NCBI GenBank assembly: GCA_036874045.1
Contig: CM072339.1
Location: 10,361,501 to 10,425,500, forward strand
Length of the DNA: 64,000 nucleotides
Direction: 5' to 3'
Origin: Cymodocea nodosa
Lineage: Eukaryota; Streptophyta; Magnoliopsida; Alismatales; Cymodoceaceae
Shown: one piece after another, positions 11,444 to 58,760 of the stretch
Position numbering within the stretch: position 1 is the stretch's first letter
How the letters are laid out: each line of letters opens with the position of its first letter
Program-made: the position numbers and the translations under genes
Notes under the pieces: generated by a model
Databases searched by the model: none
Told to the model about the DNA's origin: nothing
What the model saw: the letters and a program-made list of their open reading frames with translations, nothing else

Positions 11444-12589
11444 TTATAATTTAAGAACATGATTGAAAAGTAGTAACAAATGGAATAAACGTGTTAGTCC
11501 ATGCAAACTTTTTAGGCATAATTCTTCTTGCTATTAATTCTATTTTAATGCAGTCTGTTTTCCTTTTTAGCTTGTAAACTTGTAGTATGTTATTAATACT
11601 AAATATAAGTGTATTTCCATTAATGAAATGAAATGCAGAAAGGGATCCTCTTCTGTTCCAAGATAATGTAGCTATTTCTATTTCTACATCTATTTCAATA
11701 TATTCCTCTTCCCACTTCCATTCATTTAGGTCTTTTATAATCTATATTTGAAATTTCCTCAATTCATCTCACTATCTTATCAAACATAAAGTAGGATCAT
11801 CATATTCATTATACCACATTCCTAATTGAATTTTATCATATTCTGCAGACGGTGGTTTAGCTATATCACTCGGTATAGGTAATATTTTTATAAAGTCATC
11901 ATCATAACTATCTATACTTACTATGTATAAATCAGATCTAAATGCAACTGATATATCTATGACTAAATATATATATCCATCAAGAATGACATGTATGATG
12001 TTAATTAATGCTTTCTGTCCTAGATATATCATAGTATTTTCAGTTCAACATCTATTTAGAAAATTATACACACTTAAGCATAAATCTTCATCCCAATTTC
12101 TAGTTGGTCTCTAGTAATACAATTTTTCAGGAATGGTTAAATTTTTATCAGAAAAGATTAAAGCTGACCTACAATTTTTAGTTGGTACTTCAAATCTATT
12201 AGACCTTCCTATATTTCATTCTTCTCTAGTAATAGGATTTCTAATCAAAATGTCGGGTAACAAAATTGCATACGTTGGTTTGGTTCTATAAATAATTAAT
12301 CCTTCATCCATCCCTATAATACGATCTATTCCTTCTAATGTATTGGGTGGAATTCCAGTAGTTTCTTTCATATTCAGATATTCATAGCTAATTGAACTAC
12401 GATTAAATGACTTCCATAAAAATCTATCTCTAATCTTAGTCATTTTTGCAGCTTGTAGTCTATGAAAATATTTTTCTTTGACACAGTCTTTGATTTCCTT
12501 TGATACACAATACAATCTGCACATATCTTTAGCTGACAGGTTACTTAGTATTCCCTCAGTGCATCCAATGGTAATTTCATCAATTTCAT
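11444..12589 (-). pseudogene. F-box protein gene, copy 1 (in G1)
   Basis: Retroelement-borne F-box protein of about 380 codons, collinear with copy 2 (36524-37656). ATG 12589 is followed by an F-box start (L-P-L-D-A-L-R-E). One base is missing at about 12548 relative to copy 2, shifting the frame, after which MCRLYCVSKEIKDCVKEKYF completes the F-box. The C-terminal part resembles F-box-associated domains: IIGMDEGLIIYRTKP, DILIRNPITREE, then VILDGYIYLVIDI. Adjacent Trp codons near 11770 have become TAG and TGA. F-box proteins act as substrate adaptors of SCF ubiquitin ligases; that this one ever did so is inference. TAA at 11444-11446 ends the frame. What follows to 11284 is G1 3' sequence cut by S1. 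Confidence 0.65.
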
Positions 12590-12599
12590 TTGTTGTGAT

Positions 12600-12601
12600 T
12601 T
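12600..12601 (-). other. Precise exon-exon-like junction in G1 (gag missing)
   Basis: On the minus strand, leader ...aaagcttcaaacta is joined directly to aatcacaacaaatg. In G3 these halves are aaagctttagactg (ending 57102) and aatcacagcagatg (from 58708), separated by 1605 bases that start GTATGT and end ACAG. In G2 they are separated by 37668-39231. The junction is base-exact, with no extra or missing nucleotide. Confidence 0.8.
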
Positions 12602-12730
12602 AGTTTGAAGCTTTGTATTCAGTAAATAGTTGTTGACAAATGAAGTCGAATCAATTGCTTCTCCTTCTAGTTCCCCAACAAATTTCCTTTTCTTTCAAAA
12701 GTGCTAGTAACTTGTAAATAACATTCTTTC

Positions 12731-12740
12731 TATATTTATA
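12731..12740 (-). promoter_or_regulatory. Conserved TATA box upstream of the G1 leader
   Basis: TATAAATATA on the minus strand, about 130-140 bases before the splice junction. Conserved at the equivalent place in G2 (39365-39374) and G3 (56962-56969) inside otherwise diverging noncoding sequence. Confidence 0.5.
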
Positions 12741-12842
12741 ATGCACGTCCATAAAGCAAATGAATCTCGTTGTAAGAACGTGTCTTGTAACGTGTAGTGG
12801 TGTTCCTACTTTTATGGATACGTGTTCCACTTCTAATTTCAA

Positions 12843-13539
12843 ATTTCAATAACTGCTAAACCCACGAAGTTTCATTTGTGGCTAAAAGAATAACCGTTTA
12901 GCTTAATCCACGAACTAACCTCGTTGAGTTACAGTTAATTCAACAGACTAGCTTTGGTTACTGTTGCTAACTCTATGGACTAACTTCGTTGAGTTACAGA
13001 TAACTAAATTGAGTGACCTTATATTATATTATTGACCTTGTGGAGTTAAGGTTAACTCAACGAACTTACGCCATTGAGTTAACACTTAACAAATTTCTAA
13101 AACTTACTCCTCGTATTAACTTCTATATATTTTTCTTATACTGCATTTTGTCAACTTAAATAAAGTTAAATACATGTCATTAATGCAGTGTTCTAAATAA
13201 AACTCATTTAAATCTGAACATTATATGCATATTTAACTTACAGTTCATTCCTTGTTGTGTAGAATTTACATTTTACTTTTCAGCATGCAGATATATCCAA
13301 GCATTAACCAATTATCATGCATTTAATCCTATCATTCAGAAAATTTGTAAATCTTTTAAACAGTCTTGCACGTCTTTAAACAGTTATATAATATTCAATA
13401 CAGTTCTCTATTATATCATTCTCAAACACGAATGAAAAAACATCTGAAAAACATACATTCATTTATATGAATAGTTTACATTTCAATCAATCAGATATTT
13501 TTCATACAAATATAAGTACAAGTAGATGAACAATACAAT
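12843..13539 (-). other. G1 noncoding stretch between env-like ORF and leader
   Basis: No ORF. It holds four to five copies of the cttcgttgagttac / taactcaacgaac motif (12920-13090), arranged partly as inverted pairs. Homologous to 39480-40170 (G2) and 56180-56940 (G3). Confidence 0.6.
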
Positions 13540-13865
13540 TTAATTTTTCTTCCTAAGTTCATCTACTTCCTTTTGGAGTTTTTCTAATTGTTGCTCTAAT
13601 TGATTTATCCTCTCTACAGCTCCTATAATGCCTCCAAAAGGTTCAGCTATCTTAGTAGCAACATAATTTATATATTCTTTCACTAAAATGGTTCTTGATC
13701 TTATCCTTTTGGATGCCCATTTTGTGAAATCAATACTATCCACCATCAGTAGTGGAATCAGATCTCCATAAAATAATTTCTTCTTTACTACTCTCAACTT
13801 AGAGATAAAAACTGCAGACTAATTAATCTGAATTCTATTCACAATTGCATATGTGGCCCACTTCA
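13540..13865 (-). pseudogene. G1 env-like ORF, C-terminal piece
   Basis: Last part of the G accessory ORF, starting after the solo LTR at 13866. It carries the conserved KKLFYGDLIPLLMVDSIDFT motif and a terminal coiled coil (RINQLEQQLEKLQKEVDELR) and ends with a stop at 13540. The same C-terminal plan, a YGD motif followed by a coiled coil, is seen in the S1 ORF. Removing the LTR joins this piece to 15540-15982 at cttga. Confidence 0.8.
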
Positions 13866-15539: not shown

Positions 15540-15982
15540 CTTGACAAATTGACTCAGTTCAATATCATGGCCTTATCGTTGTTAGACATTCTTAATCAAA
15601 ATGTTAGCTATCATGTGTGCTTTACCATTTAAGTGTTTCAGTCTATTTAATAATGGCACACCAGGATTGATAGCTAAACAATCATTTATTATCTGTTCTG
15701 TCCACTCGATTGCAGTTGTGCTTTCCAGAATTTCTATTCCTTCATTCTTTAGTCCTAAAATGTTGTGGAGAAGCTTTGGGGTTATCTGTACATCATCTTG
15801 CTCCACGTTGGAAATTAATCCACTTTCTCCTTCTCTTAAATTTGCATAGAAGTAGGGCACTAGATTCTCATATATTGCATGCCCTTTCTGCTGAGAAATA
15901 AATTGCAGTAGACATTGGAACTCAAATAAATCCTTAATTTCTTGCATACCATCCTAGTTAACTAGTCCATTGTAAATGATAT
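15540..15982 (-). pseudogene. G1 env-like ORF, central piece
   Basis: Open from 15947 to 15582 as a 121-residue stretch: MQEIKDLFEFQCLLQFISQQ, a Tyr-rich LVPYFYANL segment, LHNILGLKNEGIEIL and LNGKAHMIANILIKNV. These match G3 (55450-55820) almost residue for residue, and match A1 and A4 accessory ORFs at EIRDLFEFQ, VLGLKNEGVVV and ARFIANILHAN. A TAG stands for Trp just upstream of the first Met. Cut on the right by A1 at the gatat target site. Confidence 0.8.
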
Positions 15983-22066: not shown

Positions 22067-22722
22067 TTACACATCACATAGCCTACGAATACCTAAATTT
22101 AATCTAATGTTGCAGAATGTATTTTCGTCTAGAGGTTTTGTAAATATATCAGCTAATTGATTTTTACTAGACACAAATTCTAATTTAATTTTTCCTTTGA
22201 TTACGTTATCTCTTAGAAAATGTTGTCTAACCTCTATATGCTTTGCTCTTGAATGTAATATAGGATTTTTGGAAAGATTTATTGCAGAACTACTGTCACA
22301 ATAAATCTTAGTTATATCATAAGATAATCCAAAATCTTTTAAAGTTTGCCTTATCCACAGAATCTAAGTGCAACATAGTGCAGCAGCAACATATTCACCT
22401 TCTGTAGTAGAAAGTGCTACACAGTTTTGCTTTTTACTAAACCATGATACCAAATTAGTTCCCAATAATTGACATGGGCCACTAGAACTCTTCCTATCAG
22501 ATTTAGATCCTGCATAATCAGCATTAGTATATCCTATAAGATCTATTGAACTATCCTTAGAATAATACAATCCGAAATTTTTAGTTCCTTGTATATATCT
22601 AAATATTCTTTTAACTACAATTAAGTATGATTCTTTAGGATTAGATTGAAATCTAGCACAAACACACACAGCAAACATAATATCAAGTCTACTAGCAGTC
22701 AAATAAAGTAAAGAACCAATCA
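22067..22722 (-). pseudogene. A1 pol fragment: RT end and RNase H
   Basis: Begins at MIGSLLYLTASRLDIMFAVC, the copia RT C-terminal motif, then RNase H with Asp in YTNADYAG, Glu in STTEGEY and Asp in YCDSSSAINLSKN, and HIEVRQHFLRDN and QLADIFTKPLDE near the end. TAG at about 22362-22364 replaces Gln. The stop at 22067-22069 ends Pol. Upstream, the sequence jumps directly to the protease region at about 22722, showing loss of integrase and most of RT. Confidence 0.9.
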
Positions 22723-23037
22723 TACTTCTGTATTTTTATCAATTATTTTGCATACATTATCTTCAAACACTACATAATATCCATTTTCAGTTAGTTTTAT
22801 GACACTCAGCAAATTAAATCCTAGGTTTTCTATATATAGTACATTCGAAATAACACAAGTAGGAGTTATTTGAACATTGCCCATACCTATGATTTTATCT
22901 TTGCTTTTGTTTCCAAATATTACACTTCCTTTCATGGTATTTGTAAAATTTTGTACTAGACTTTTCTGTCCGGTCATGTGACTTGACGCTCCACTGTCCA
23001 AGATCCATTTTAATGTTGTTTCCTCCTGCAACACAAA
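22723..23037 (-). pseudogene. A1 protease fragment
   Basis: Copia aspartic protease: WILDSGASSHMTGQKSL with intact D-S-G, then a beta-strand-rich segment (KDKIIGMGNVQITP, NLGFNLLSVIKL, YYVVFEDNVCKIIDKN). Homology with A2 stops at DKN, where A2 continues into the GAG-pre-integrase domain while A1 switches to RT. It follows a TAA (23038-23040) and a TTGCAG|G acceptor-like sequence. Confidence 0.85.
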
Positions 23038-25297: not shown

Positions 25298-25484
25298 CTT
25301 ACCTTAGATTTTTCAACCTATTTGATTTTAAACAGTCTAAAAACTTTAAAACAACTTGAGCCTTAAATCAAGAAAGTTAAACGTATGCTCAGATATTAAT
25401 TTCTGTTTAAAAACAAGGAAGGTAGAATAAGCAATGATATTAAATAAGTTGGTATCGATTTTATATCAAAGATTATTAACAAAG

Positions 25485-25496
25485 CTCTGATACCAC
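25485..25496 (-). other. Primer-binding site of A1
   Basis: Minus strand TGGTATCAGAGC, perfect for initiator tRNA-Met, two bases inside the 5' LTR. The stretch 25298-25484 between it and the gag ATG is untranslated leader. Confidence 0.93.
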
Positions 25497-25498
25497 TT

Positions 25499-27227: not shown

Positions 27228-28720
27228 GATATCATAACCCCTAATCTCTTGATATTTATTATATGCTTCCTAACTCCAAAAGTATACTTCATTCAAAACT
27301 ATTGCTTTAGTTAGGTCAGGAATTTGACTTTGTTGCTCTAGATGGGTTTGTTTTTGAACTTCCTCTTCCATGTGCTGAACTTGAATTGGCTGAAAATGCT
27401 CTTGAGATTCCTATATTTTGCTTCTACTTCTGTTTGTGGTGGTGAGCCGGTAGAACTCTCCACTCTTCTCTCTTGAATTCTTTCCAAAATTTGTTGAAGA
27501 GTTTCTTGCTCTTCAATGGAATCTGTCGAGTCATTTCTTTCTTGTTCCATATGTACTTGTTTAGCTTCTTATTCTGTTTCTTCTTTTTCTTCTTCCTCCT
27601 GACTACTAATCTGCATTGTCATTGTTCTTTCTGATTCTGTGATAGATTGGGATGGAGTTACGGGCAAATAAGCTTCTGCCCTAATTTCTGTTTGTTCTAT
27701 TTGTACAGGCTGCAGATTAATTTCAACTTGATTTTCTTCTTTTCTTTGCTCTTGCTACTGCTGCTCATACTCATCCTCAGAATCGGATAGCAGGTCTACA
27801 AAAATTGGCTCTATAGGTCCTATTAATATTGCTAGCTCTGGTTTAATCTCTTCTTGATGTTCAGGCACTATCTCTTTTCCTTTCCTTGTTCTAATTAATT
27901 ATGCCTGGTTTTCCTCTTCTTCTAAGATTAAATCTACAAAAATAAGCTCTACAGGTCCTCGAGCCACAGGTATAGCTCTTCTATTTAACTTTTTCTATAA
28001 TTGCTGGTCTCGAAGGGCCGACTTTAGCTTCTTTTACAGTAGGTATGGTAGTGGCTTCTTAATGCTGTTCAACTTTAATTTTGTATTGGGCCTTCAACTT
28101 TTCTACAGCTCTCCTTTTGTAAAGTGCATCAAACACCAGATGTGCTTTAGCTATTGCCAAATCTTTTGGTTCTCCTTGGTTTTTTCCAACTCAAACCAGT
28201 TCTTCAAATTCTCTTAATTCTTCCTCAGGAGATGGCCCCAAAAATGCTACTCTTTCTAATGGCCTTGGTGGTGGAACTGAAGGTCCGGGCTGTTGTTCCT
28301 CAGGTACATGTCTTTCAGTAGTCGGTTCCTCTTGTTCTTTAGTTGCATGTTCTTCAATTCCTTTCCTCTATTGCTCCCAAATTGCTCACCGTGCATGTCT
28401 ACCTATGCATCTTTTGAACCATAGTTGGGACTTACGTTGGATCAATTCTAGGGCAATTTCATTATTTGGTCTAATTTTTCTTTCTCTATTTAATGCAGCT
28501 TCTATAGCTACTCTAATTCTCGTTTCCATAATCTGAGGTATTTGTATGCCTAAATCCACTAAAACTTTTTGCTAGTAGAAAAGGTCAGATTCTACCTTTT
28601 GCAGCTCTTTTCCCTCGTCGTATTTTTGATCTTCTACCTTGTGTACCATTCTTTCGATTCTTTAAGAAATCTTGTCGTGTCAATTACTTCCTCCTAGAAT
28701 TCTAGTGTCATCTTTTTCAT
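27228..28720 (-). pseudogene. G1 env-like ORF, N-terminal piece
   Basis: ATG at 28720 matches the G3 start at 53961. The product is charged and Glu/Gln-rich and heavily interrupted; only a 70-residue stretch (27550-27338) is open. It aligns with G3 53961-55420 along its whole length, including the N-K-Y-Q segment just before the A1 insertion point that is partly deleted in G3. The A1 target duplicate gatat is 27228-27232. Confidence 0.7.
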
Positions 28721-28760
28721 CGTGGAGTTACGAAATCGCTTTGATCATCTGTATACCAGT

Positions 28761-29304
28761 TGTAGGATCATCTGTATCACAAGAGGGGGGGTGAATTGTG
28801 TCTTTAGTAATTAAATACTAGCGGATAAAATAAGAGCACAAGATACTCGTAAATGAAATTCTATTCTTTATTTAAAAACAGAATTTACAATATCTTTTCA
28901 GCTCAATTCCCTTCTTGAAGGTTTTGATATAGAAATGTTTGATATACAATTCGAATATAACAATAAAGCTCTTATTGAAAACTAATTTCGAATTGTATAA
29001 AACCTGATCTTTCTTTGTCTTTGCTCAGCTTCTGTATCTCTTCTTCTCTAGCTGTCGAATTTTCAGACTTCTTATGCTTGCAGCTCCTTTTCTGAAATTG
29101 CTTGGAATTTCGAACTTCTTCTAATGTTGGAGAACTTTTCAGAATATGAATATTCAAACTTAACTTTTCAGTTAGGGATCTAGATTAAATATTCAGACTT
29201 GGTTTTTGAGATTGGGATCCTCTATTGTAATGTAGCTCGTACTCTCTATTAGTAGTTGAACTTTGTTGTCTTTCACATTCAGCGTGTTCATCCACTTAAT
29301 CCAC

Positions 29305-29338
<34 letters not shown>

Positions 29339-29953
29339 CGTACTATCTTTTTGAGTTTCCACTTTCTCCACAATCATTTTGAATTTCCATGATCTCCACT
29401 CGTAGATACATCGAGACTTTTATCTTCCTAGAGTCTTGTAGAATATCTTCTAAGTCTTCGATTTAGTCGAACACTTATCCTTTAAGTCCTGTAAAAACTC
29501 GAACACTTATTTGTAACTCTTTGAGTTTTTGCACCTACAAAACATGTGACTAAACATAACAAACTTATCTGTTCGTTAGTCATTTTATAAAACTCAAACA
29601 GTTATCTATCCATGCGTATAAAAACTCAAACAGCTATCTAACTATTTGATTTTCATTACCGAATGCACATGGAAAATACGTGACAACTTAAAACATTAAA
29701 AACACACGTGCAGATAACTTAACTATACGAGTTTTTAACATAAACTATTCGACAAAAATGAAACGTTAACTATCTGAAAGTTTAACTATCGAAAATCTAA
29801 CTCTTCGGAAATCTTTAACTTATCCGACATAAAAATGAAACTTTCCGATAATCTATTAACTATTATACTTAGAGAAATATACTTAGAGAATATTATGTAG
29901 ACTTATTTAAAAACGTTAATGAAGCATATATCATCAAAATTAAATATCTAACA
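28761..29953 (-). repeat. B-type LTR at the head of G1
   Basis: Minus-strand LTR, TGTTAGATATTTAATTTTG at 29953 to GATCCTACA at 28761, matching the B1 LTR. On its left, two bases away, is a degenerate primer site (TGGTATACAGATG) leading into G1. On its right is a minus-strand PPT. It therefore looks like a 5' LTR to the left and a 3' LTR to the right. Confidence 0.85.
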
Positions 29954-34435: not shown

Positions 34436-36523
34436 ACTCCAAGAAATAATAAAGTATTCTTTAAGCGTTTAAAATATAACTATCCAGTATATGAAATGTA
34501 ACTCTCCAAAATAACAAACAATTCGGATACTAAAAAATTACAAAGCCTATAACTCACTGATAGTGCAAAACTGTACTTAATTAACACTAACTCCTTGAAA
34601 TTATGCAGATTTTTCCATTAAAGCATATTATAGTGCAATTATAACATAATAGCTTAATTCTCATATGATAAGCTAAATATTATGCAATTAACCATTAATA
34701 TTATGTACTATTTCATTCTAAAGACTTCCCCCGTATTTAACTTTTGCTAGTCCCTTAGCAAACTACTAAGATCTAACTAGTTGGTCTTTCTAAAGTGCTA
34801 GAACTAATTCTTCATTTTGTATCTTCAGAATACATAGATTAGATTAATGTAAAGATATTTTGTATTAATTTAGTAATCTAATTCGACATTGTTTTCTCCT
34901 CTCCAACCTACAAATATATTTAAAACATATGTAATGTACATACAAAATATACTAGCATCACATAGGTGGTAATTATATTATCATTTTTTTTCTTTTCAAA
35001 CATCTGTTATCTTGAATTTTCCAATATGATTTCCAAAATAAATTTCAGCTACATACGAATTAAAACACAATTCAACTTAATGTGATTAAAACAAGAAGAA
35101 TAATGAATTGTATCTTAAATAAACAACTTCAAAAGTCTAATTCTAGATTCATACTTTAGTAATCATAGATAACATAAAATATAATTGATTCAAAAGATAT
35201 ATGTATCTTCACAAAATACTTTTATCTTTTAGAACAGTATATGCATATTTTTACTTTAAAAGTTAGTTTAAAAAGCTTAAATTATATAAGAGCTTTCTAG
35301 TGTACCTATGTATCAAGCTTTCAGTCAACAATCTCAAATTTGATCAAGATCTTAGGTTGCTAGATTTAAAGAGTCATTTTTCAAGTTAACAATCCTTACA
35401 TACTTATCTACTCAAGTACAAAAGGCTCGTGATCAAACAAATCAATAAACTCTCAAAGTTTCTCTTTTTTTCTTTTCAACACAGTATATATATGTATTTC
35501 ATTAATACAGATGCAATAAAGCACAAATCTCATATTATTCTACTTCTATAATTTACCGACGACATGAATCCATATCAATAAGCTCATACTTTTTTTGTAG
35601 TTTAATAAGATTTACTCGTAAATCATTCTATAAGTTTAATCAATTAAATTAAATGTATCCTTGATCATATGCATCTCATTTAATCCAAAAATCAACATTT
35701 CAGCTCTTTTAGGATTTTAGATTATTTCCAGAGTTTTAGTTAAGCATTTTGATTTCTTTTTAAAATCGTGAAACTATTAAACTCATAAAATTTAGCAAAA
35801 CATAAGATACTATATCCAAATTTGTATTAATAATAAAATTTTGTAGCATCTTATATAAGATTCTAAATATAACATTCAAGTAGTTACAATTCTCAAAAAA
35901 AAAATTTCATATTTTCAATTATCAGATAGTTATAGGAAATTTTGGTTAGTTATAGTAAATTTATAAAAGATTTTCAATTTCCATAGAAATTTGCAACACA
36001 ATCTTAATTCCTCTAATTAACAAGATTACTTAGATTTTAATCTGATTACCTCCCCCCCATACTTACATTTTGCATTGTCCTCAATGTAAAAGATTTATAG
36101 TAAATACAGAAAATGTTAGCAAGCATGAATACTGTTCCATTGACTTAGTTCACCTAGCTCAACAAACTGTGCTTGAATGTAAATTCAAGGTAAGTAATCA
36201 ATTACATACTTTGTTCTTTGTATCTTCTTCAATATCTTTTGACTTTTAATTCTAAAAAGCTTTTCATTCATAAATAAAAGCAGAATATATAACAAAATAA
36301 CAACTAACAACAAAACATAAATTGTTAAATCAATGTCTTGTGTGGAACCTAGGCTCCTATGCCTTTGGTGGCTCAAAAGCAAGCTAGTTGATTTCTCAGA
36401 ACAAATACCAACAAACTAGATTGATATTTTATTTATTTTTATTTTCTAAAATAATTAAAACAGAGAAACATATTTTTTTCTTAAAAATAAATGCAGCATA
36501 CACACAATATTAAAAGTATAAGA
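34436..36523 (-). other. G2 spacer, partly shared with copia A1
   Basis: Noncoding. 34730-36050 matches A1 20880-22080 (spacer between pol and env-like ORF), including the cgacattg...cctacaaatat block at 34893 and aaaggctcgtgatcaaac at 35421. A purine tract (plus-strand ctcccccccat) lies at about 36050. Confidence 0.6.
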
Positions 36524-37656
36524 TCACAGTTTAGGAACATGATTGAAAAGTAGTGACAAATGGAATAAATGTGTTAGTCCAAGCATAATTCTTATTGCTA
36601 TTAATTCTATTTTAATGCAGTTTGCTTCCCTTTTTAACTTATAAATTTGCAATATGTTATCAATGCTAAATACAAGTGTATTACCATTAATGAATTGAAA
36701 TGCAGGAAGGGATCCTCTTTTATTCCAAGATAATGTAGTTGTTTCTATTGTTACATATATTTCAATATATTCCTCTTCCCACTTCTATTCATTTAGGTAT
36801 TTCATAATCCATATTTGAAATTTCATCAATTCATCCCACCATCTTACAAAATATAGTGTAGGATCATCATATTCATTATACCACACTTCTAATTGAATTT
36901 TATCATATTCTGTAGATGGTGGCTCAGCTATATCATTAGGTATAGGCAATATTTTTATAAAGTCATCATCATAACTATCTATGCTTACTATGTATAAATC
37001 AGATCTCAATGTAATTGATATATCCATGATTAGATATATATATCCATCAAGTATGACATGTATGTTATTAACTAATGCTTTTTCTCCTAGATATATCATA
37101 GTATTTTCATTCCAAGACTTATTCAGAAAATTATATACACTTAAACATAGATCCTCATTCCAATTACCAGTTGGTCTCCAGTAATACAATTTTTCAAGAA
37201 TGGTTGAATTTTTATTAGAAAATGTTAAAGCTGACTCATAATTTTTAGTTGGTACTTCAAATCGATTAGGCCTTCCTATATTCCATTCTTCTCTAGTAAT
37301 AGGATTTCAAATCAAAATATCGGGTAATAGAATAGTATACCTTGGTTTGGTTCTGTAAATATCAATCTTTCATCTATCCCCATAATATGATCTATTCCTT
37401 CTAATGTATTTGGTGGAATTCCAACATTTTCCTCCATATTCAAATATTCATAGCTAATTGAACTATGATTAAATGACTTCCATAAAAATCCATCTCTAAT
37501 ATTAATTATCTTTGCAAGTTGTAGTCTATGAAAATATTTTTCTCTAACACATTCTTTAATTTGTCATGACACACAACACAATCTACACAGATCTTTAGTT
37601 GATAAGTTACTTAGTACTTCCCTCAATGCATCTAGTGGTAATTCCATCAATTCCAT
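36524..37656 (-). pseudogene. F-box protein gene, copy 2 (in G2)
   Basis: About 378 codons from ATG 37656 to TGA 36524-36526. The N-terminal F-box MELPLDALREVLSNLS, then TKDLCRLCCVS and a stop (TGA), fits the L-P-x-D-x-L-x-x-x-L-x-x-L-x-x-x-D-L-x-R-x-x-x-V-S consensus. Then come YLNMEENVGIPPNTLEGID and a long C-terminal F-box-associated-like region, open for 134 residues (37189-36785) with ILDGYIYLIMDI and YDDPTLYFVRWW. Frameshifts near 37310 and 37360 break the middle. The gene sits 200 bases downstream of gag, directly after a splice acceptor (ACAG at 37668-37671), where Athila pol would be expected. Homologue: copy 1 at 11444-12589. Assignment rests on the F-box motif; the partner and target are unknown. 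Confidence 0.65.
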
Positions 37657-37740
37657 CTGTTGTGATTCTGTAACATAAATAAAATTTAAACAGAGATAAA
37701 ATTAACATAGCTACTTACATATCTTCGTAGAGTTAGGTCA

Positions 37741-37769
37741 TAACTCAACGGACTAAGTTCGTTGAGTTA
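37741..37769. repeat. 29-bp near-perfect palindrome
   Basis: taactcaacggac, then taa, then gttcgttgagtta: 13-base arms with a single G/T-type mismatch. As RNA it would fold into a hairpin. It is the clearest example of a half-site that recurs across the window. Confidence 0.75.
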
Positions 37770-37855
37770 AGTAATAACTCTACAGTATTACTAACTATAA
37801 TTAAACTTTCATTTTCTTTGTTTTTATATTTTTCTACTTACTATATTATACTACC

Positions 37856-39187
37856 TCATTTAGCTTCCCTCTCATAGGAGGTGTCAATTTCATTAGCAGT
37901 TCTATTGATAAGGTTAGATATTGCTTGCATTGGCAATCCTCCCATAGGTCTACCTTCTATTGATTCTTTCTATCTAGGGGGTATATTTCTATTCATATTT
38001 TGATTTTGAATAGTAGCATTTCCAAATACATGGTCTAGATGATTATTTAATTGTTAAATTATCTTTTCTAACTTCTCCATTTTAGATCCTTGTTCAATTA
38101 ATACTTCATAACTTATATTTTCTCCTCCCTGGAAATTGTTATTTCTCCAAGATAGGTTTGGGTGATTTCTCCAATTAGGGTTATAAGAATTTCCAAAGTT
38201 ATCTTTCTGGTTTCAAGCATAAATAATATCTAAGTCATTAATATTTGCATTCTTTTCTACTAGTTTTTGATTTAATGATAACTCCTCTATTTTCTTTGTT
38301 AACTCAATTAATTTAACTTCAAGCATAGTGTTTGAATCTATTTCATGCATTTCCCTTGGCAATATTCTTTGATCTGTAATAGCTTCAACCGAGTTTTCCT
38401 ACTGAGTAGTTCTTTTTGCAAAGTTTTCTAAGTATGCCCATGTTTCTTCACTACACAAGTTTAAAAATCCATTCTAACAAGCAGATTCTCATAAAGATTT
38501 AGTTGAAACATCTATGCCTTCATAAATTATACTTATTAATTGTGCTTTACTCATTGCATGATATGGACATTGAGTCATTAAATCTTTAAATTGTTCAAAA
38601 TATTTTCAAAATGATTCTTCGTGTTTTTGGCTACACATTAATATTTCCTTTTTCTTTTTAATCGTTTGATGTGTTGGATAATATTTTTCTAGAAAAATAG
38701 AGCAAAATTCAGTCTAAGCAGAAATTAAATTAGGCGATAGAGTATATAATCATCTCTTAGCTATCTTTTAAAACAAAAGGAATATATTTAAGTTTAATAG
38801 CATCAATACTCATGTTGGGTATTTTCATCATTTGACAAACTTCGTTAAATTCTCTAAGGAAATAATAGGCATATTCTCTTTCTAATCCATGAAAGTGTGG
38901 CAATTGACTAATATAATTAGATTTCAGTTCAAACTAGTCTCCCTCAAAGTTTGGCAATTGTATATATGAAGGTTCATCAACTAGTTTAGGAAACAAAATT
39001 TTTCCTAATAGTTTTTCTACTAGAGTAGCCATATTTTCGTTCCCCTTTAAAGAAAGGTTAGTTACACCCCTAAAGATTTCATTAAAGTCCAATTTAGAAA
39101 ATTTTTCAATATGCTTCTGTGTTGAATAATCTTGTATAGTTGTTCTTACTAATCATTTAGTGCTAGGAGAACGAGTCCATGTGCTCA
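37856..39187 (-). pseudogene. G2 gag, Athila-type Ty3/gypsy (broken)
   Basis: ATG at 39187, equivalent to the G3 start at 57147 (M-S-T-W-x-R-S-P-S-T-K). Contains the retrotransposon Gag core (LPHFHGLERE, YIPFVLKDS) and NPNWRNHPNLSWRNN near the C-terminus. Many stops and frameshifts; terminal TGA at 37856-37858. No zinc knuckle seen. The gene lies wholly within the intron-like interval. Confidence 0.75.
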
Positions 39188-39364
39188 TAAACTCTTAACA
39201 TAAAGTAAAATTGCAGAAGATTAATTACATATCAATCTAAAGCTTTGTTCTCAATAAATAGTTGTTGATAGATGAAGTTGAATCAACTGCTTTTCCTTCC
39301 AGTTCCCCAACGAATTTTCTTTTCTCTCCTCAATTGCTGGTAACCAGTAAATAACATTCTATTC

Positions 39365-39374
39365 TATATTTATA
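39365..39374 (-). promoter_or_regulatory. Conserved TATA box in G2
   Basis: TATAAATATA on the minus strand, about 135 bases before the splice donor, as in G1 and G3. Confidence 0.5.
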
Positions 39375-40172
39375 ATGCATGTCCATAAGGCAAATGAATC
39401 TCATTGCAAGAATGTGTCTTGTAACGTGCAGTATGATTCCTATTTTAATGGATACATGTTCCACTTCTAATTTTAAATTTTAGTAACTACTAAACCCATG
39501 AAGTTTCATTTGTGGATAAAAGAGTAATCGTTACACTAACTCCATGAACTAACCTCGTTGAGTTACAGATAACTCAACGGACTAGCCTTAGTTACTGTTT
39601 GCTAACTCCACAGACTAACTTCGTTGAGTTATAGATAACTCAATAGAGTGACCTTATATTTCAATATTGACTTCATGGAGTTAAGGTTAACTCCACGAAC
39701 TAACTTCGTTGAGTTAACACTTAGTAAATTTTCCTAAAAACTTACTCCTCATCTTAACTTCTATATTGTCTTCCTACATTTTATTAACTTAAATAAAGTT
39801 AAATACATTACATTAATGTAGTGTTCCAATTTAAACTTATTTAAATTTGAACATTATATGCATATTTAACTTACAGTTCATTTCCTGTTATGCAAAAATT
39901 ACATCTTACTTTTTAGTATGTAGATATATTTTATCAATTCATCATGCATGTTTCCACATCATTCCTAAAATTGTAAAACTTTTAAAATAGTCTTGCAAAA
40001 TTTTAAACAGATATATATATAATATTCATCTTCAATACAGTTCTCAATTAAATCATTCATTCACAATCATACGTATTTAGAAACATCTGATGTTCAAACA
40101 TTCATATATATAAATAGTTTACAATTACATACAAATAGATATTTTTCAGTACAAGTAGATAAATAATACATT
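39375..40172 (-). other. G2 noncoding stretch between env-like ORF and TATA
   Basis: No gene. At least six copies of the cgttgagtta / taactccacgaac motif between 39540 and 39720, several as facing pairs. Confidence 0.6.
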
Positions 40173-43023: not shown

Positions 43024-44957
43024 TTATCTATTCCTCCTAATGATATCACTTATAGCATTACAAATTTTATCTCCTAAATGCCTAATATCATTTTTGATGT
43101 CATTCAGTACTGCATTTAAGTCAAGAGGTAGCTTTGGTTGCTGTTGTACTTAATCTGAATAGTTTCATTGTTGTTGTTGTTGTTGTTGTTGTTGTGGAAG
43201 GTCAGGTTGTTGTTGCTATTATTGCGTTTGTTGGTGTTTTTGCAAATCTCTTACATTGAACACTCTCATGCCTTTAGTTTCAGAAGGCTAGTCAGATAAA
43301 TCTAGTTGGCTTGCAATAATTCAACATACAGCATCACCAAAAAATAACTTTGAACTCAAATGTTGTAATTGATATATGAAAACATCAAACCAATTTATTT
43401 GTATTTTGTTTAGTATGCCATAAGTTGTATATAAATAACTTCTACTTACTTCTAGATTATATTTGACTCTCTAATAAATTTGCATGTAGAATATTTGCAA
43501 TAAACCTAGCTTATGCATTCAAATTTTCCATTAATCTCATTTCTAAATATACACCAGAAATTTGTGATAAAGACTAAATGTCTCATTCCAATTATCTAAC
43601 AATGTGAAATCTGTTTATAACAACACCTTTATTCCTTAATCCCAAAACTTCTAAAATTAGTTCAGGAGATAAAGTAAACTCTTGTTGAGTTATTTAAGTT
43701 GTCAATAGATTTTCATTCTATACCAGATTGTTGTAAAATGCTGCAATAGGCTCTTTATATTGCTTCCATTTCATTTTAACTGGTAAGAATTGCATTAAGC
43801 CTTGAAACTCAAATAAATCCTTTATTTCTAGTAAACTTCTAAATTTTATTGGACGAACATGTAGAATTTGATATGAAATTAAACTATTGTATTTTTACAA
43901 TGCTTCCTCAAATCTAAAATAAATTGAATTGCCTTGAATATTTAGTGTTCTATACTTAGAATGTGATACTTGAAGCCTTAATTCAGAATTTAAGTCTCCT
44001 TTAGGAATCTCTTCTTCAAAATGAATGTCATTGTATTCCTTTGTCAAAATATTTTCTTGAAGCTACTTAGGTAAGCTTGACTCTTCAGCTTCAACAATGT
44101 AAGGAACATTTTCAATATCTACAACATCCATTAATTTAGTTTCTATAAAGTGTTCAGAGTATAATTTTTCCACAAATTCAATAGTCGGTGTATCTGTCTG
44201 TAATTCTTCATTTTCGTCAATAGATATTTCCATTTTTACATGTTGTGAATTTTCATACTCTAGTTCTATAGATTCTAAAATAGGCTAATCAACGTTAAGC
44301 TCTTCTAGAATCTTGTCTTTTTCAAGCACTACTGCAATAACTTGTTTAATGTCATCTGCTTGATGTTGTGATTGTTTAATTACCTTATCATCAGGGCTTG
44401 ATGCTATAGAAAAACTTGAACTAATTTGTTGCTTTGTTCTCTTTTCAAGTTTTCTAGAAAAAGATAATAATGTTTCAATGTCGTCATCAGTTTGAGTGTG
44501 TTCTGAATTGATAACCTTGTTAGTTGCAATGTAAGGCACAATGTCTAGACAAACATTGCCCTTTGAAATTAAATCATCATTTGATTTTTTTTTTTCAACT
44601 AAATTTGTTTCTTTAGAAACAATTTTTGTTTCGATTTTCTAACTCCTTTTCTCTTATAGCAAGTCAATTCCTCTTTTGCTATTATTGTTGTTTTCTATTG
44701 AATTTGTTCCAAAAAAGTTTTCTATTTCAATTCTTCTAAGGTACTTTCTATAGCTATTGTCTTTCGAAAACTTTCAACTTTTCTCTGATCTACACAATAT
44801 TTATCTATTTTTCTTTTGAAAACAAAGGTGTAGGTATTGCAGATTCATGTACTTCCTCAAATGATGTAAGTCATGTTCTGTTTATAGGTGTTTAAGGAAT
44901 TCTACTCGATGAACCTACTCATTTTTCCAAGTATTGAGCATATTGTTCCAAAATGTT
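43024..44957 (-). pseudogene. A4 accessory (env-like) ORF, N-terminally truncated
   Basis: Same family as A1 18208-20492, more decayed. Recognisable: EQYAQYLEK at the right end, VGSSSR, HESAIPTPLFSK, an 84-residue open stretch (44539-44285), HVRPIKFRSLLEIKDLFEFQ (near 43830), ILEVLGLRNKGV and ARFIANILHANL. A (GTT)n tract at 43168-43196 encodes a poly-Gln run where A1 has only four Gln. Stop at 43024-43026. Upstream it does not continue into copia pol but joins Athila integrase at about 44960-44990. Confidence 0.7.
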
Positions 44958-44976
44958 TCAAGGCTACTTGATGAAC

Positions 44977-47542
44977 CTACTCCTTTTGCATTTTTCTATT
45001 TTCAATAGTTTGATTTAAATTAGTGTTTAGAGTGTTTAATGCCCAATAAGCTTTATGTTCAATTTTACCTGATAAATGACAACTTTTTCTATAAACTATC
45101 CTAAAAGGTGATATACCTAAGCATGTCTTATAAGCAGTTCTATAGGCCCAAAGTGCATCTATTAATCTATCAACCCAATCTTTCCTAGTAGGATTTACTA
45201 CTTTTTCTAAAATTAATGTAATTTGTTTGTTTACACTTTCTACTTGTCCACTTGTTTGTGGATGATATGATGTTGCTATTTTATGATTTACTCCATATTT
45301 CTTTATTAAGGCTTCAAAACTTTTATTACAGAAATGAGCTCCTCTATCACTAATAATAACTTTAGGTATTCCAAATCTAACAATTATATTAGTTCTAATA
45401 AAATGTATTACCACTTTGTTGTCATTAGTTTTTGTAGGAATAGCTTTTACCCATTTAGATACATAATCCACCCCTAACAATATATAATTAAATTGATTAG
45501 ATAAAGGAAATTGACCCATAAAATCTATTCCCCACACATCAAAGATTTCAACCTCAACAATAGGATTCAGAGGCATCATATTCCTCTTTGATATCCTTCC
45601 TACTTGTTGACATCTTAAACAACTTAAAGTAGTATTTATGAGCATCTTTGAATAGTGTTGGCTAATATAAACCACATTGTAGAATCTTGGTAGTAGTTTT
45701 CCCTGAACCAAAATGTCTGCCACATGCTTGGTCATGGTAGAAAGACAATATGCTCTGATATTTAGTTTCTAGAACATGCCTCCTTAAAACTAGATCAGGA
45801 TATTTCTTAAATAAGTATGGGTCTTCCTAATAATAATATTTCACTTTTGAAAAGAATAATTTCTTATCTTGTCTATTCCAATCTTTAGGTGTTAAACTAG
45901 TAACTAAGTAGTTAACTATGTCTACATACCAAGGCATTGTGTTTATGGTCATTAATTGTTCAATATCCTTAATTTCAATGTTTGATTTTTCTATTTGTAA
46001 TATTGATAAATGGTCTGCTACTACATTCTCACATCTTTTTTTATCTTTAATTTCTAGATCAAATTCTTGTAATAACAATATCCAACGGATCAACCTAGGT
46101 TTAGTCTCTTTCTTTACTATTAGGTGTTTTAAAGTTGAATGATCCGTGAATACTATCACTTTAGCTTTAATTAAATATGGTCTAAACTTTTCTAAGGCAA
46201 ACACAATAGCTAATAGTTCTTTTTCATTAGTTGTATAATTAACTTGAGCATCATTTAAAGTTTTGCATGTATAATAAATCACTCAACGGAGATTTTTCTA
46301 TCTTTTGTCCCAACACTGCTCTTAAAGCAAAATCAAATGCATCGCACATTAATTTAAATGGATGGCTCCAATTAGGTGCTTGTATTATAAGAGTTGAAAT
46401 TAAACTAGTTTTAAGCTTGAAAAATGCTTCTTTGCAATTCTTATCAAAGTTAAATAGAACATCTTTTAATAAATTAGTTAAAGGTCTAGCTATTTTGCTA
46501 AAATCTTTAATAAATCTCCTATAAAATCCTACATGTCCTAGAAATGATCTAATATCTTTTATTGTTTTGGGTTTTGGTAGATTAGAAATTACTTCTATTT
46601 TAGCCTTATCTACTTCCAACCCTTTCTTTGAAACATGTCCCAAGACTATTCCTTGTTTAACTATAAAGTGACATTTTTCCCAATTTAAAACTAGATTTTT
46701 TCCACACAGTGTTTTAATACTCGGTTTAAATTGTTTAAACACATTTCATTTGAAGTTCCATATACAGTAAAATCATTCATAAATATTTCTAAAAAATCTT
46801 CAGTCATTCTAGTGAATATGCCTTGTATACACCTTTGAAAGATAACTGGTGCATTGCATAATCTGAATGGCATCCTCTTAAAAGCATAAGTTCCATTAGG
46901 ACATGTGAAAGTTGTTTTCTCTTAATCCTTAAATGCTACTAGAACTTGGTTATTTCCTAAATACCCATTTAAGAAACAAAAATATTTTTGCCTTGCTAAT
47001 TTTTCTAGCATTTGATCTATAAAAGGTAAGGGAAAATGATATTTCCTAGTCACAACATTTAGCTTTTTATAGTCTATACACACTCTCTAGCCTGATTGAA
47101 TTCTAGTAGATATCAAATCCTAACTTTCATTCCTAACAACTATTAATCCTAATTTCTTGGAGACTACATGGATTGGACTAACCCATAAGCTATTAAAAAT
47201 TGGATAAATTATGTCATCATCTAACCATTTCACTATTTCCTTCCTAACAACTTCTTTAAAGTTTGGATTTAATTTCCTTTCAGGAATTCTAACTAGTTTA
47301 GTATTCACTTCTAAATATATATGGTGACAACATAAAGTTGCACTTAACCTTTTTATATCAGCTATAGTCCATCCTATTGCCTCTTTATAAGTTTTTACTA
47401 CATCTTTTAATTTAGAAATTTGATCTACTTTTAAATTTGATGCAATAATGATTGGACATATTCATTTTTCTTCCAGAAATATATAGGTTAATTTAGGAGT
47501 TAAAGGTTTTAAATCTAAATGTTGACCATCAGAAGTTAAAGC
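44977..47542 (-). pseudogene. Athila-type Ty3/gypsy pol: RT, RNase H, integrase
   Basis: Order RT (47308-46691), RNase H (about 46500-45830), integrase (45735-44977), hence Ty3/gypsy. Motifs: IPERKLNPNFKEVVRKEIVK and WVSPIHVVSKKLG in RT; the catalytic box reads FMNDFTVYG where Athila-like RTs have an M-D-D, so one Asp is lost by GAT to AAT. RNase [21 protein letters not shown] and [11 protein letters not shown]. Integrase: zinc-finger region CLRCQQVGRISKRNMMPLN, Asp in VWGIDFMG, Asp in ISDRGAHF, Glu in SGQVESVN. Frameshifts at about 46260-46280, 46700 and 45800. The right end is cut by A2 in the linker before RT. It may be the missing pol of a G-like or true Athila element. Confidence 0.9.
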
Positions 47543-53660: not shown

Positions 53661-53960
53661 ACTTTATGGGAAGTCCGTTGAGTTACACATAACTGAACGA
53701 ACTTACTCCATTGAGTTTAGGATAAGTTAACTCTAACTCAATGGAGTATTGTAGTTAAGTCCACAGACTAAGTTCGTGGAGTTAATTGTAATTCCATGGA
53801 CAAGAGAGCAAGAGTTTTGCGTGGGAAATGACCCGATTACCTACCTAAATTTAGGGCTTATTTATACTAAACTTAGGGTTTGGGGGTATTATCTGCAGAA
53901 TCATTTAAAACATAGAACAGTAAAGATCAGAGCGATTACGTTCCGTTGTGTAACTCCAAG

Positions 53961-56179
53961 ATGAGGAAGATGGCACCTGAATTCTGGTAAAATGCAGTAG
54001 ACACGTTAGAATTTCTCTAAGATACAGAGGAATGGCATACGAGATAGAAAATCAAGAATACGACGAAGGAAAAAGAGCTACAAAAGGTAGAATCTGACAT
54101 TTTCTATTGGAGGAAAGAGTTAGTAGATTTGGGTATACAAATCCCTCAGATAATGGAAACTAGAATCAAGGTTGCTACAGAAATTACTGTGAGTAGAGAA
54201 AGAAAAATCAGGCCAAATAACGAAGTTGCCCTAGAACTAATCCAACGTAAGTCCCGACTATGGTTCAAAAGGAACATTGTTGGTTGTGCAAGGGGAGTAA
54301 TTAGATGGGAGCAACAAATGAAGGCAACTACAGAACAAGAGGAACTGACTACTGAAAGACCTATTCCTGAGGAACAGCAGCTAGGACCTTCAGTTCTACC
54401 ACCAAGGCCGTTGGAACAAGCAATAATTTTGGGGCCTTCTACTGAAGAAGAAAGAAGAGAATTTCAAGAACTAGTTCTAATAGGAAAAGACCAAGGAGAA
54501 CTAGAAGAATTGGTAGTAGCTATAGCACATCTAGTGTTTGATGCACGGTGCAAAAAGAGGGCTACAGAAAAGTTGAAAGCCCAATATAAAATCAAAGTGG
54601 AACAGCATCGTGAAGCTACTGCCCGACCTACCGCAAAAGGAGATGAAGCTGGTCCTTCGAAACTAGTAATTATGGAAAGAGTTAAACAAGAAGAGTTAGT
54701 ACCTATGGCTCAAAGGCCTATAGAGCCCATTTTTGTAGATTTAATCTTAGATGAAGAAGAGGAAGACCAAGCACAATTAATCAGAAGAAGGAAAGGAAAA
54801 GAGATAGTGCCTGAACATCAAGAGGAAATTAAATCTGAAATACCAAGATCAATAGGGCCTGTAGAGTCGCTTCATGTAAACCTGCTATCCGATTTTGAAG
54901 AGGAGCAGCAGCAGCAGCAAGAGCAAAAAGAAGAAGATAATCAGGTTGAAACTAGTTTACAACTTGTATAAGAAGAAAAAACAGAAATTAGGGTAGAAGG
55001 TGATTTGCCTGTAACTCCATCCCAATCTGCCACAGAATCAGAAAGAACAGTGACATTGCAGATTGGTAGTCAGGAGGAAGAATAAAAAGAAGAAAACGAA
55101 CAAGAAGTTGAACAATTACAAATGGAAAGAGATGACTCGACATATTCCACTAAAGAGCAAAGAACTCTTCAGCAAATTTTGGACAGTATTCAAGACAAAG
55201 TGGAGAGTTCTGTCGGCTCACTACCACAGACAAAAGTAGAAGCAAAAATGCCAGAATCTGTGGAGTATTTTCAGCAAGTTCAAATTCAGCTTATGGTAGA
55301 GGAAGTTCAAGAACAAACCCCTCTAGAGCAACAAATTGACATTCCTGACTCGACTGAAACAACAGTTTTAAATGAAGTACACTTTTGGAGTTAGGAAGCT
55401 TATAATAAGGGGTTGTGATATCATTTTTAGTAGACTAGTAAATTGGGATGGAATGCAAGAAATCAAAGATTTAATTGAGTTCCAAGATCTACTGCAGTTT
55501 ATTTCTCAAGAGAGAGGGCATGTAGTATATGAAAATCTAGTGCCCTGCTTTTATGCAAACCTAAAGGAAGGAGAAAGTGGATTAATTTTCAATGTGGAGC
55601 AAGTTGATGTACAGATAACACCAAAGCTTCTCCACAACATTTTCAAATTGAAGAATGAAGGATTGGAAATTTTGGAAAGCACAACTACAGTCGAGTGGAC
55701 AAAACAGATCATAAAAGATTGTTTAGCTATCAATCCTAATGTGTCATTATTAAATAGACTAAAGCAGCTAAATGGTAAAGCACACATGATAGCTAACATT
55801 TTTATTAAGAATGTCTACCAATGACAAGACCATGGCATAGAACTAAGTCAATTTGTCAAATGGGCCACATGTAGTTGTGAACAGAATTCAGATAAATTGG
55901 TCTGCAGTTTTTATCTCCAAGCTGAGAACAGTGAGGAAAAAATTATTTTATGGAGATTTAATTCCACTATTGATGGTAGACTGTATCGATTTCACGAAAT
56001 GGACATCCAAAAGGATAAGATCTAGAACCATTTTAGTGAAAGAGTACAAAAGTTATGTGGCTGCAGAGATAGCTGAACCTTCTAGAGGAGTTACAAGAGT
56101 TGTAGAAAGGATTAATCAATTAGAGCAACAAGTAGAAAGACTCCAGAAGGAAGTAGATGAACTTGGGAGAAAGGATTAA
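53961..56179 (+). pseudogene. G3 env-like (first) ORF
   Basis: About 740 codons. Start ATG 53961 matches G1 28720. Frame 0 is open for 280 residues from 54129: a basic N-terminus, then a long Glu/Gln-rich segment with an IDLI/VDLILDEEEEDQ acidic repeat and a QQQQQ tract (54906-54920). A 13-14 base deletion near 55405 (relative to G1) shifts the frame. The conserved domain follows: DIIFSRLVNWDGMQEIKDL, LVPCFYANLKEGE, LHNIFKLKNEGLEIL, LNGKAHMIANIFIKNVY (stop TGA at 55822-55824), then RIQINWSAVFISKL, KKLFYGDLIPLLM and a C-terminal coiled coil ending at 56179. It lies upstream of gag, not after pol. No signal peptide. Homologues: A1, A4 and S1 ORFs. Confidence 0.75.
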
Positions 56180-57102
56180 TTTGTATTGTTTGTCTACTTG
56201 TACTTGTATATAATTGTATGAAAAATATCTGACTAATTGTAATGAAAATTATTCATATAAATGAAGGTATGTTTTTCAGATGTTTTTGTATTAATATTGG
56301 AGAATGATGTAATCAATGAATTATCTTGAATATTATATAACTGTTTGAACAATGTATAAAACTATTTAAAAGAGTTATAAATTTTATAAATAACAAGATT
56401 AAATGCAAGATAAGTGGTTAATGCTGAAATATCTATATGCTGCAAAGTAAAATATAAATTCTGCATAATATGAAATGAACTATAAGTTAAATATTTATAT
56501 AATGATCAGATTCAAATAAGTTTAATGACATGTATTTAACTTGATTTAAGTTAACAGAATACAAGAGAGAAGAAAAATATAGAAGTTAATATGAGGAGTA
56601 ACTTAAAGGTTGCTAAGTATTAACTCAACGAAGTAAGTTTGTTGAGTTAACCTTAACTCCACGAAGTTAATAATATAATATAAAGTCACTCCGTTGAGTT
56701 ATCTATAACTTAACGAAGTTAGTACGTGGAGTAAGCAACAGTAACTGAAGTTTGTCTGTTGAGTTAACTATAACTCAACGAGGTTAGTTCATGGATTAAG
56801 CTTAACGGTTATTCTTTTAGCCACGAACAAAACTTCGAAGATCAAGCGGTTATTAAAATTTGAAATTAGAAGTGACACACGTACCCATAAAAATAGGAAC
56901 TGCACTACATGTTACAAGACATGTTCTTGCAACGAGATTCATTTGCTTTATGGAAGTGCATTATAAATATAGAACAAAATGTTATTCATGAGTTATCAGC
57001 ACTTTTGAAAGAAAAGAAACTTCGTTGGGGAATTGGAAGGAGAAGCAACTGATTCAACTTCGTTCGTTAACAATTATTTACTGAGTATAAAGCTTTAGAC
57101 TG
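56180..57102 (+). promoter_or_regulatory. G3 noncoding leader: motif pairs, TATA box, exon-1-like segment
   Basis: 56620-56800 holds five gttgagtta/taactcaacgaag motifs in facing orientation. TATAAATA at 56962-56969 is conserved in all three G copies. The leader ends in aaagctttagactg at 57102, the presumed splice donor boundary. A cttcgttggggaattgg stretch (57020) vaguely resembles an Athila primer site but is too degenerate to call. Confidence 0.5.
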
Positions 57103-58707
57103 GTATGTAATTAATCTTCTGTTATTTTACTTCATGTTAAGAGTTTATGAGCACATGGATTCGTTCTCCTAGCACTAAAAGATTAGTAAGAACACCTACA
57201 CAGGATTCTTCAACACAAAGACGAACTGAAATATTTTCTGAATTAGACTTTAACGAAATCCTAAGGGGTATAGCTAACCTTTCTTTAAAAGAGAACGAAG
57301 AGATGGCTGCTCTAGTAGAGAAACCATTAGGGGAAATTCTGTATCCTGAATTAGTTGATGAACCTTCATGTATTTGATTACCAAACTTTGAGGGAGATAG
57401 GTTTGAACTGAAATCTAATTATATTAGTTAATTGCCACATTTTCATGGATTAGAAAGAGAGGATGCCTATTATTTCCTTAGAGATTTAATGAAGTTTATC
57501 AAATGATAAAAATGCCGAACAAGAGTATTGATGCTATTAAATTTAGATATATCCCTTTTGCTTTAAAAGACACAGCTAAGAGATGGTTATATACTCTATC
57601 GCCTGATTCAATTTTTGCATGGACTGAATTTTGCTCTGTTTTTCTAAAAAAATATTATCCAACACATCAAATGATTAAAAAGAAGAAAGAAATATTAATG
57701 TGTAGCCAAAAATAAGGAGAATCATTTTGGAAATATTTTGAAAGATTTAAAGATTTATTGACTCAATGTCCACATCATGCAATGAGTAAAGCACAATTAA
57801 TAGGTATAATTTATGAAGGTATAGATGTTTCAACGAAATCTTTATTAGAATCTACTTGTCATAATGGATTTTTAAAATTGTATAGTGAAGAAGCATGGGC
57901 ATATTTAGAAAACTTTGCAAAAAGAACTACATAGTGGGAAAATTCAGCTAAAGCTATTGCAGATAAAAGAATATTGCCAAGGGGAATGCATGAAATAGAT
58001 TCAAGCACTATGCTTGAAGTTAAATTAACTGAATTAACAAAGAAAACAGAAGAGTTATCATTAAATCAAAAACTAGTAGAAAAGAATGCAAACGTTAATG
58101 ATTTAGATATTATTTATGCTAGAAACCAGAAAGATAACTTTGGAAATTCATATAACCCTAATTGGAGAAATCATCTGAATTTATCTTGGAGAAACAACAA
58201 TTTTCAGGGAGGAGAAAATATAAATGACAAAAATATAAGTTATGAAGCTTTAATTGAACAAGGATCTAGAATAGAAAAATTAGAAAAGATAATCCAACAA
58301 TTAAACAATCATTTGGATCTTGTATTTGGAAATGCTGCAATTCAAAATCAAAATATAAATTGAAATATACCCCCTAGACAGAAAGAATCAATGGAAGTTA
58401 GACCTACTAGAGGATTGCCAATGCAAGCAATACCTAATCCTATCAACAGAACTGTTAATGAAATTGATACCTCCTCTAGGAGGGTAGCTGAATGAAATAG
58501 TATAACTGAAGTAATTATGTATATATAGTAAGTAGAAAAATATAAGAATATAAAAAGAAAAAAATGTAAGTTTGATTATAGTTAGTAGTATCGTAGAGTT
58601 ATTACTTAACTCAATGAACTTAGTCCATTCAGTTATGACCTAACTCCACGAGGGTGTGAAGTAGCTATGTTAATTTTGTCTCTATAATTTTTGTTTATGT
58701 TATACAG
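57103..58707 (+). other. Intron-like segment of G3 containing the whole gag
   Basis: 1605 bases starting GTATGTAA (consensus plant donor CTG|GTATGT) and ending TTTTTGTTTATGTTATACAG. In G1 precisely this interval is absent. Splicing is inferred from the comparison, not shown. Confidence 0.75.
57147..58495 (+). pseudogene. G3 gag, Athila-type Ty3/gypsy
   Basis: About 450 codons from ATG 57147. N-terminal linker, then the retrotransposon Gag domain: PHFHGLEREDAYYFLRDL, FRYIPFALKDTAKRWLYTL, FLKKYYPTHQMIKKKKEI, ESFWKYFERFKDLLTQCPHH and EEAWAYLENFAKRT. This is the order and spacing of Athila/Tat Gag. The C-terminal part has a coiled coil and YNPNWRNHLNLSWRNN. One-base deletion near 57485; stops at 57375 (TGA), 57714 (TAA), about 57932 (TAG) and 58361 (TGA), several at Trp or Gln positions. 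No zinc knuckle. Terminal TGA 58493-58495. Confidence 0.85.
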
Positions 58708-58760
58708 AATCACAGCAGATGAAATTGATGAAATTACCACTAGAATCACAACAGATGGTT
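58708..58760 (+). pseudogene. F-box gene remnant (copy 3)
   Basis: Directly after the acceptor: the start of the F-box exon (M-K-L-M-K-L-P-L), then a second copy of aatcacaacagatgg, then a jump to ttaattgcataat, which in G2 lies about 3 kb downstream (34690). The ATGG shared at the break suggests a microhomology or template-switch deletion. Confidence 0.7.

Follow-up and report, generated by a model that had tools for sequence, protein, structure and literature searches.

Intron-like edges around the gag interval of a plant retroelement, and a gag-less copy that probably derives from spliced RNA

Among plant LTR retrotransposons, functional introns are described for Ogre and EVADE, and similar splicing for BARE1, in the section of the literature drawn on here (PMC12786077). 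In the Ty1/copia elements BARE1 and EVADE, alternative splicing splits one transcript between products, as is proposed below for the element that we call G; there, however, splicing favours Gag, whereas in G it would remove Gag (PMC3735527, PMC12786077; relevant portions of both). According to the excerpted BARE1 report, spliced RNA must stay out of replication, and DNA copies of it were not amplifiable from barley (PMC3735527). BAGY-2 of barley and Athila-type elements with spliced env-like RNA are described as splicing over upstream genes to reach a downstream ORF, which is also the arrangement suggested for G (PMC7264820; PMC2829016; parts of each). In Arabidopsis, pol is absent from most Athila elements, some of which have intact gag and env under purifying selection, as stated in the extract cited (PMC2410132). 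Ogre, a member of the Tat clade, is reported to carry a long ORF upstream of gag, as G does (PMC1142308), and its functional intron is likewise a feature that we propose for G (PMC12786077). As of 2005, introns upstream of gag were listed as unreported in the portion of the Diaspora paper used here, whose authors suggested for this Glycine max element that packaging and reverse transcription of a spliced RNA could remove a gene in a single event (PMC1142308). In Diaspora it is env that was lost, and that portion shows no junction, whereas the G copy at issue here has lost gag and the junction is visible (PMC1142308).

Self-comparison of the window, the stretch of 64,000 nt that was analysed, revealed three copies of G, two on the minus strand (G1 and G2) and one on the plus strand (G3). 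The gag of G is of the PF03732 kind, as in Athila-type elements, but G differs from BAGY-2 and Athila in having an F-box ORF at the place of env, no pol in between and a genomic copy with the spliced join. The Ogre intron lies within the polyprotein region; the interval in G, by contrast, runs from a point ahead of gag to one ahead of the F-box ORF and thus contains gag. Non-autonomous TR-GAG elements have gag without pol and resemble G by this definition, although G possesses two further ORFs, the upstream one and the F-box ORF. In titles and abstract openings of the open-access literature, none of the matches listed described either a plant LTR element with an F-box ORF or a spliced plant LTR RNA copied into a genome. 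With a probability of about three in four, we read G as a retroelement with an intron-like gag interval and env-style expression of its F-box ORF, G1 being a retrocopy of the spliced RNA.

Copies, coding content and surroundings of G

Comparison of the three copies gives the order upstream ORF, leader, donor, gag, acceptor and F-box ORF. In G3, the broken upstream ORF (ORF B, distantly PF20167-like, its start placed by eye) spans about 53961..56179 and is followed by the leader at 56180..57102, which includes the exon-1 part up to the donor. The gag-bearing interval (57103..58707) contains a broken gag ORF with a putative start codon at about 57147..58494, and the F-box exon begins at 58708..58752, with an ATG at 58719, so that 45 bases of this exon are present before another repeat interrupts. 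G2 comprises the leader with the exon-1 part (39233..40172, the upper limit being approximate), the gag-bearing interval (37668..39232) and a broken F-box ORF at about 36527..37656; its upstream ORF starts at 40905, as judged by self-comparison, and this ORF precedes leader and gag in G2 and G3 alike. In G1, the end of the upstream ORF (to 13540), the leader and the exon-1 part, up to the join, occupy 12601..13863, and a broken F-box exon (11454..12600, ATG at 12589) stands directly after the leader. The middle part of its upstream ORF lies at 15540..15982, between a copia element and a single LTR, and the first part at about 27228..28731, with a copia-type LTR just before. The statement of a first-pass annotation that G1 retains the upstream ORF is thus borne out, the ORF being present in three pieces (about 28720-27228, 15982-15540 and 13863-13540) split by the copia element and the single LTR.

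All three ORFs are broken within the window. Two pieces of the G3 interval match PF03732 (Retrotrans_gag) with E values of 7.4e-9 (57482-57712) and 3.4e-6 (57716-57931), while two further gag pieces gave no convincing domain match; on the basis of its motifs, this gag is putatively Athila-type. The gag had initially been called complete, and the interval indeed spans a whole gag-like ORF, yet this ORF contains stops and frameshifts in both copies. No pol follows gag, the distance from the last gag piece to the acceptor being about 215 bases in G3 and 190 bases in G2. The F-box domain (PF00646) was detected with E values of 3e-8 in G2 (37567-37698) and 2.7e-4 in G1 (12219-12599), both above the curated cut-off. 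For the upstream ORF, the matches of its pieces to PF20167 are weak and below the curated Pfam cut-off (E = 0.0009 in G1; E = 0.0034 in G3, 55372-55824), and the G3 piece at 54129-54971 has no PF20167 match, so that the env-like character first ascribed to this ORF is tentative. Differences by codon position are nearly flat for the F-box ORF (41, 39, 47) and for gag (37, 41, 55), which points to weak constraint on both; for the upstream ORF, the comparison of G3 with G2 gives 40, 19 and 50, a clearer sign of constraint. Protein searches with two open F-box pieces returned 17 and 3 candidates, none of them significant, whole-length relatives lying outside the length limits. Scans of viral contigs with a gag piece and with the junction pattern found no relative, in a collection that is not expected to contain plant DNA. 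The window itself consists of plant repeat DNA, in which an open copia-type gag ORF (2407-3555) has 342 relatives at E values up to 0.001 among 3202 candidates. The names given for the best 120 of these 342 are those of plants, among them Cephalotus follicularis, Citrus sinensis and Cucumis sativus, and the best match shows 49% identity over 63% of the query, so that this search brought up no close relative of the host.

Self-comparison of the window did not find an LTR pair bounding any G copy. The leader was considered as the LTR of G and rejected, as it has no second copy within a G unit and no primer-binding site discernible by eye. We likewise discarded the copia-type LTR that adjoins the upstream ORF of G1 (29953-28761, followed by 8 bases of primer-binding site at 28760-28753), given its copia polypurine tract and copia primer-binding site and its absence from G3. 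The polypurine tract stands before this LTR, and the contact between the LTR and the 5' side of G1 could have arisen when reverse transcription switched to a copia RNA template, or by rearrangement of the DNA; the LTR with its primer-binding site (28753-29953) marks a possible LTR-mediated capture join. The 3' end of G1 is interrupted by an opposite LTR at 11284.

The copia element inserted in G1 (15983-27227) has LTRs that are 94.8% alike and a target duplication, ATATC, whose empty site is found at 55418-55422 in G3. A copia LTR also occurs at nearly the same site of the upstream ORF in G2 (40906, compared with 15983 in G1; 1-2 bases apart), apparently as an independent event. We dismissed the idea that G1 and G2 are duplicates of one locus with a common copia insertion, because the G1 insertion is flanked by the ATATC duplication, G3 has no insertion at this site and the LTR in G2 shows greater divergence. 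A noncoding stretch of copia between pol and the env-like ORF (20942-21792) is 75% identical to 34859-35674, downstream of the G2 F-box ORF. At 44953-46742, pieces of RNase H (PF17919) and integrase (PF00665), presumably gypsy-like, abut a region homologous to the copia env-like part (17724-20185, within G1), an arrangement explicable as a nested insertion or as a mosaic of the two superfamilies. The F-box exon of G3 (58708-58755) breaks off once a short stretch of its own start has been repeated (GAATCACAACAGATGG), resembling templated filler, and past this duplicate lies a repeat that is also present at 34697.

The gag-less junction and the edges of the gag interval

The left edge of the interval in G3 reads TTTAGACTG followed by GTATGTAATT at 57102/57103 (CTG/GTATGT), and the right edge reads TTATACAG followed by AATCACAGCAG at 58707/58708 (TATACAG/AATCAC), confirming the splice-like edges proposed from first inspection. 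In G1, on the minus strand, TTCAAACTA passes directly into AATCACAACAA at 12601/12600 (ACTA/AATCAC). Local alignment equates G1 13863-12602 with G3 55858-57101 and G1 12600-12569 with G3 58708-58739, leaving a single mismatched base at the join (A at 12601, G at 57102) and no gaps, and it pairs G1 12600 with G2 37667. The join was taken from this local alignment, since the multiple alignment misplaced 14 bases of the G1 join across the gap. The claim that G1 joins leader and downstream exon with no base gained or lost thus proved correct, apart from one substitution. As also noted on first inspection, G2 keeps the interval, but its left edge lies at 39232 rather than 39231, and its donor is mutated (TTG/ATATGT), while its acceptor is intact (TTACAG/AATCAC). 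With the junction aligned across all three copies, the flanks are common and the gag interval is absent from G1 only, the one gag-less copy in the window. The start of the F-box exon occurs three times in the window, against an expectation of 0.00.

GT-AG edges in consensus context are present in G3, the donor having decayed in G2. When positions 55418-58760 were scored with a plant splice matrix that was not trained on the host plant, the donor at 57103 ranked first and the acceptor at 58708 second among 3303 positions. Among 103174 randomly placed deletions 800-2400 bases long (those kept out of 200000 drawn), 554 were readable as GT-AG and one scored as high as the observed pair; in an exhaustive count of the 2726503 edge pairs 800-2400 bases apart, the observed pair alone reaches its score. 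No target duplication was found around the interval, whose edges share no repeat when compared in register. TATGT, the longest word common to the 15 bases around both edges, falls within the interval on either side and is missing from G1; it is therefore not the target duplication of a G1-like empty site.

Plant introns contain more U than exons. In G3, the first 44 bases of the interval (52% T) and its last 60 (45%) exceed the 31% of exon 1, whereas the whole interval (31.0%) is no T-richer than its surroundings (30.9% in exon 1, 33.7% in the leader), which may speak against the intron reading. In G2, the whole interval has 31.2% T, compared with 26.1% in exon 1 and 32.4% in the F-box exon. 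The BARE1 intron, by contrast, is described as much U-richer than its flanks in the passage cited, which the G3 interval as a whole is not (PMC3735527).

The positions of start codons relative to these edges are conserved. The F-box ATG lies 11 bases past the acceptor site in all three copies, and the putative gag ATG 44 bases past the donor in both gag-bearing ones. A conserved TATA motif, TATAAATATAG, is found about 140 bases upstream of the donor in each copy (at 56962 in G3). If transcription starts some 30 bases past it, exon 1 has no ATG in any of the three, so that the F-box ATG would be the first in the spliced RNA; unspliced RNA with the same assumed start would contain AUGUAA at the donor, then a 12-codon ORF and then gag. 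By analogy, this layout matches that of retroviruses, which make Gag from unspliced and Env from spliced RNA.

The leader also contains copies of a palindromic motif (TAACTCAACGAA/TTCGTTGAGTTA), which has 131 matches in the window with at most two mismatches, compared with 9.5 expected. Clusters occur in copia LTRs and G leaders, ahead of the upstream ORF and within the gag interval (12920-13064, 39537-39716, 53674-53784, 56621-56782, 58590-58652 and 37724-37769, in addition to the copia LTRs). Those inside the interval, at 58590-58652 in G3 and 37724-37769 in G2, are promoter-type motifs just ahead of the F-box ORF, which could consequently have a promoter of its own. Sirevirus LTRs likewise carry repeated palindromes upstream of a TATA box, but the palindromes described in the cited portion of that work have a CGG-CCG core, whereas those found here lack it and are common to unrelated elements (PMC2829016).

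Origin of the gag-less copy

The direction of change can be approached through substitutions private to one copy. Among 889 columns of leader and exon 1, counted after gapped columns had been dropped, 663 are identical, 45 are private to G1, 91 to G2 and 78 to G3, and 12 differ in all three. G1 is lowest (binomial p = 1e-4 against G2, 0.004 against G3), and its leader is nearer to both others (identities of 0.85 and 0.851) than G2 is to G3 (0.804). In two stretches of the upstream ORF, the private changes of G1, G2 and G3 number 18, 52 and 21, and 20, 88 and 33, respectively; G1 is again lowest, although close to G3 in the first stretch, and the unusual divergence of G2 is perhaps due to recombination. 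A low count in the G1 leader is what would be expected of a younger copy, supporting loss of gag from G1 over its late gain elsewhere. Counted per 150 leader columns toward the junction, the changes private to G1 (5, 5, 7, 12, 5, 5 and 6) show no dip at the join, which mildly favours a whole retrocopy over a local conversion tract.

There is good support for a splice-style removal of the gag interval in its exact edges, the rank of its splice sites, the lack of a flanking target duplication and the placement of donor and acceptor next to the start codons of gag and the F-box ORF. Deletions by end-joining are frequent in plant repeats, and G3 itself ends in exon 2 after a short filler-like repeated stretch, so that a chance DNA deletion in G1 falling on GT...AG deserves mention; the G1 join, however, has neither filler nor gap, and the fact that no other of the 2726503 edge pairs scores as high makes such an accident very improbable. 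Nor do we think it probable that G1 preserves an ancestral gag-free state, with gag entering the line of G2 and G3 later, possibly inside an intron that was already there. Stripped of gag, the G3 interval would shrink to about 260 bases (44 + 215) and be an ordinary intron, and gag is otherwise known from gag-pol elements, but no target duplication flanks the interval, and the leader of G1, nearer both others and with the fewest private changes, is not the outlier expected of an ancestor.

A different case is intron loss by gene conversion, in which a cDNA reaching from leader to F-box exon would have recombined with a gag-bearing copy of G; splicing would then be real, and G1 would not be a retrocopy as a whole. 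The junction would be identical, a long RNA covering the upstream ORF would be unnecessary, and the conserved TATA motif at 56962 could start a short RNA. Set against this, the leader of G1 has few private changes throughout, with no decrease at the join, as would suit a copy that is younger as a whole, and we regard conversion as unlikely. The proposal that G1 arose from a long RNA starting before the upstream ORF fits the presence of this ORF in G1, given which RNA from the TATA motif at 56962 alone could not yield all of G1, although conversion by cDNA would leave the same junction. Similarly, the view of G1 as a retrocopy gains from the intron-like removal and from its derived status, with conversion by spliced cDNA standing as the alternative. 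On balance, a retrocopy is the likely origin of G1.

Proposed expression of G and its implications

Splicing, reverse transcription and translation of the F-box ORF are steps that we infer from the three copies. In the retrocopy model, unspliced G RNA would be translated to Gag, whereas splicing from the donor in the leader to the acceptor immediately ahead of the F-box ATG would give rise to the F-box protein, in the way retroviruses express env. The source of G1 would have been a spliced RNA still containing the upstream ORF, which would have been reverse transcribed and then reinserted without gag. Since G shows no pol, the enzymes would have been supplied in trans. The more specific scenario, in which a captured F-box ORF is expressed env-style from a donor placed before gag and spliced, gag-free RNA is packaged in trans and reinserted, is put forward tentatively, at somewhat below even odds; if true, splicing would generate gag-free daughter elements in one step.

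With an F-box ORF at the place of env, reached from a donor ahead of gag, the element may encode a protein capable of acting on the protein-degradation machinery of the host. Moreover, G1 may contrast with the view, expressed for BARE in the section cited, that spliced RNA must be excluded from replication (PMC3735527). It is a candidate fossil of reverse-transcribed spliced RNA, the kind of event that was proposed for Diaspora in the portion of the report considered here (PMC1142308).
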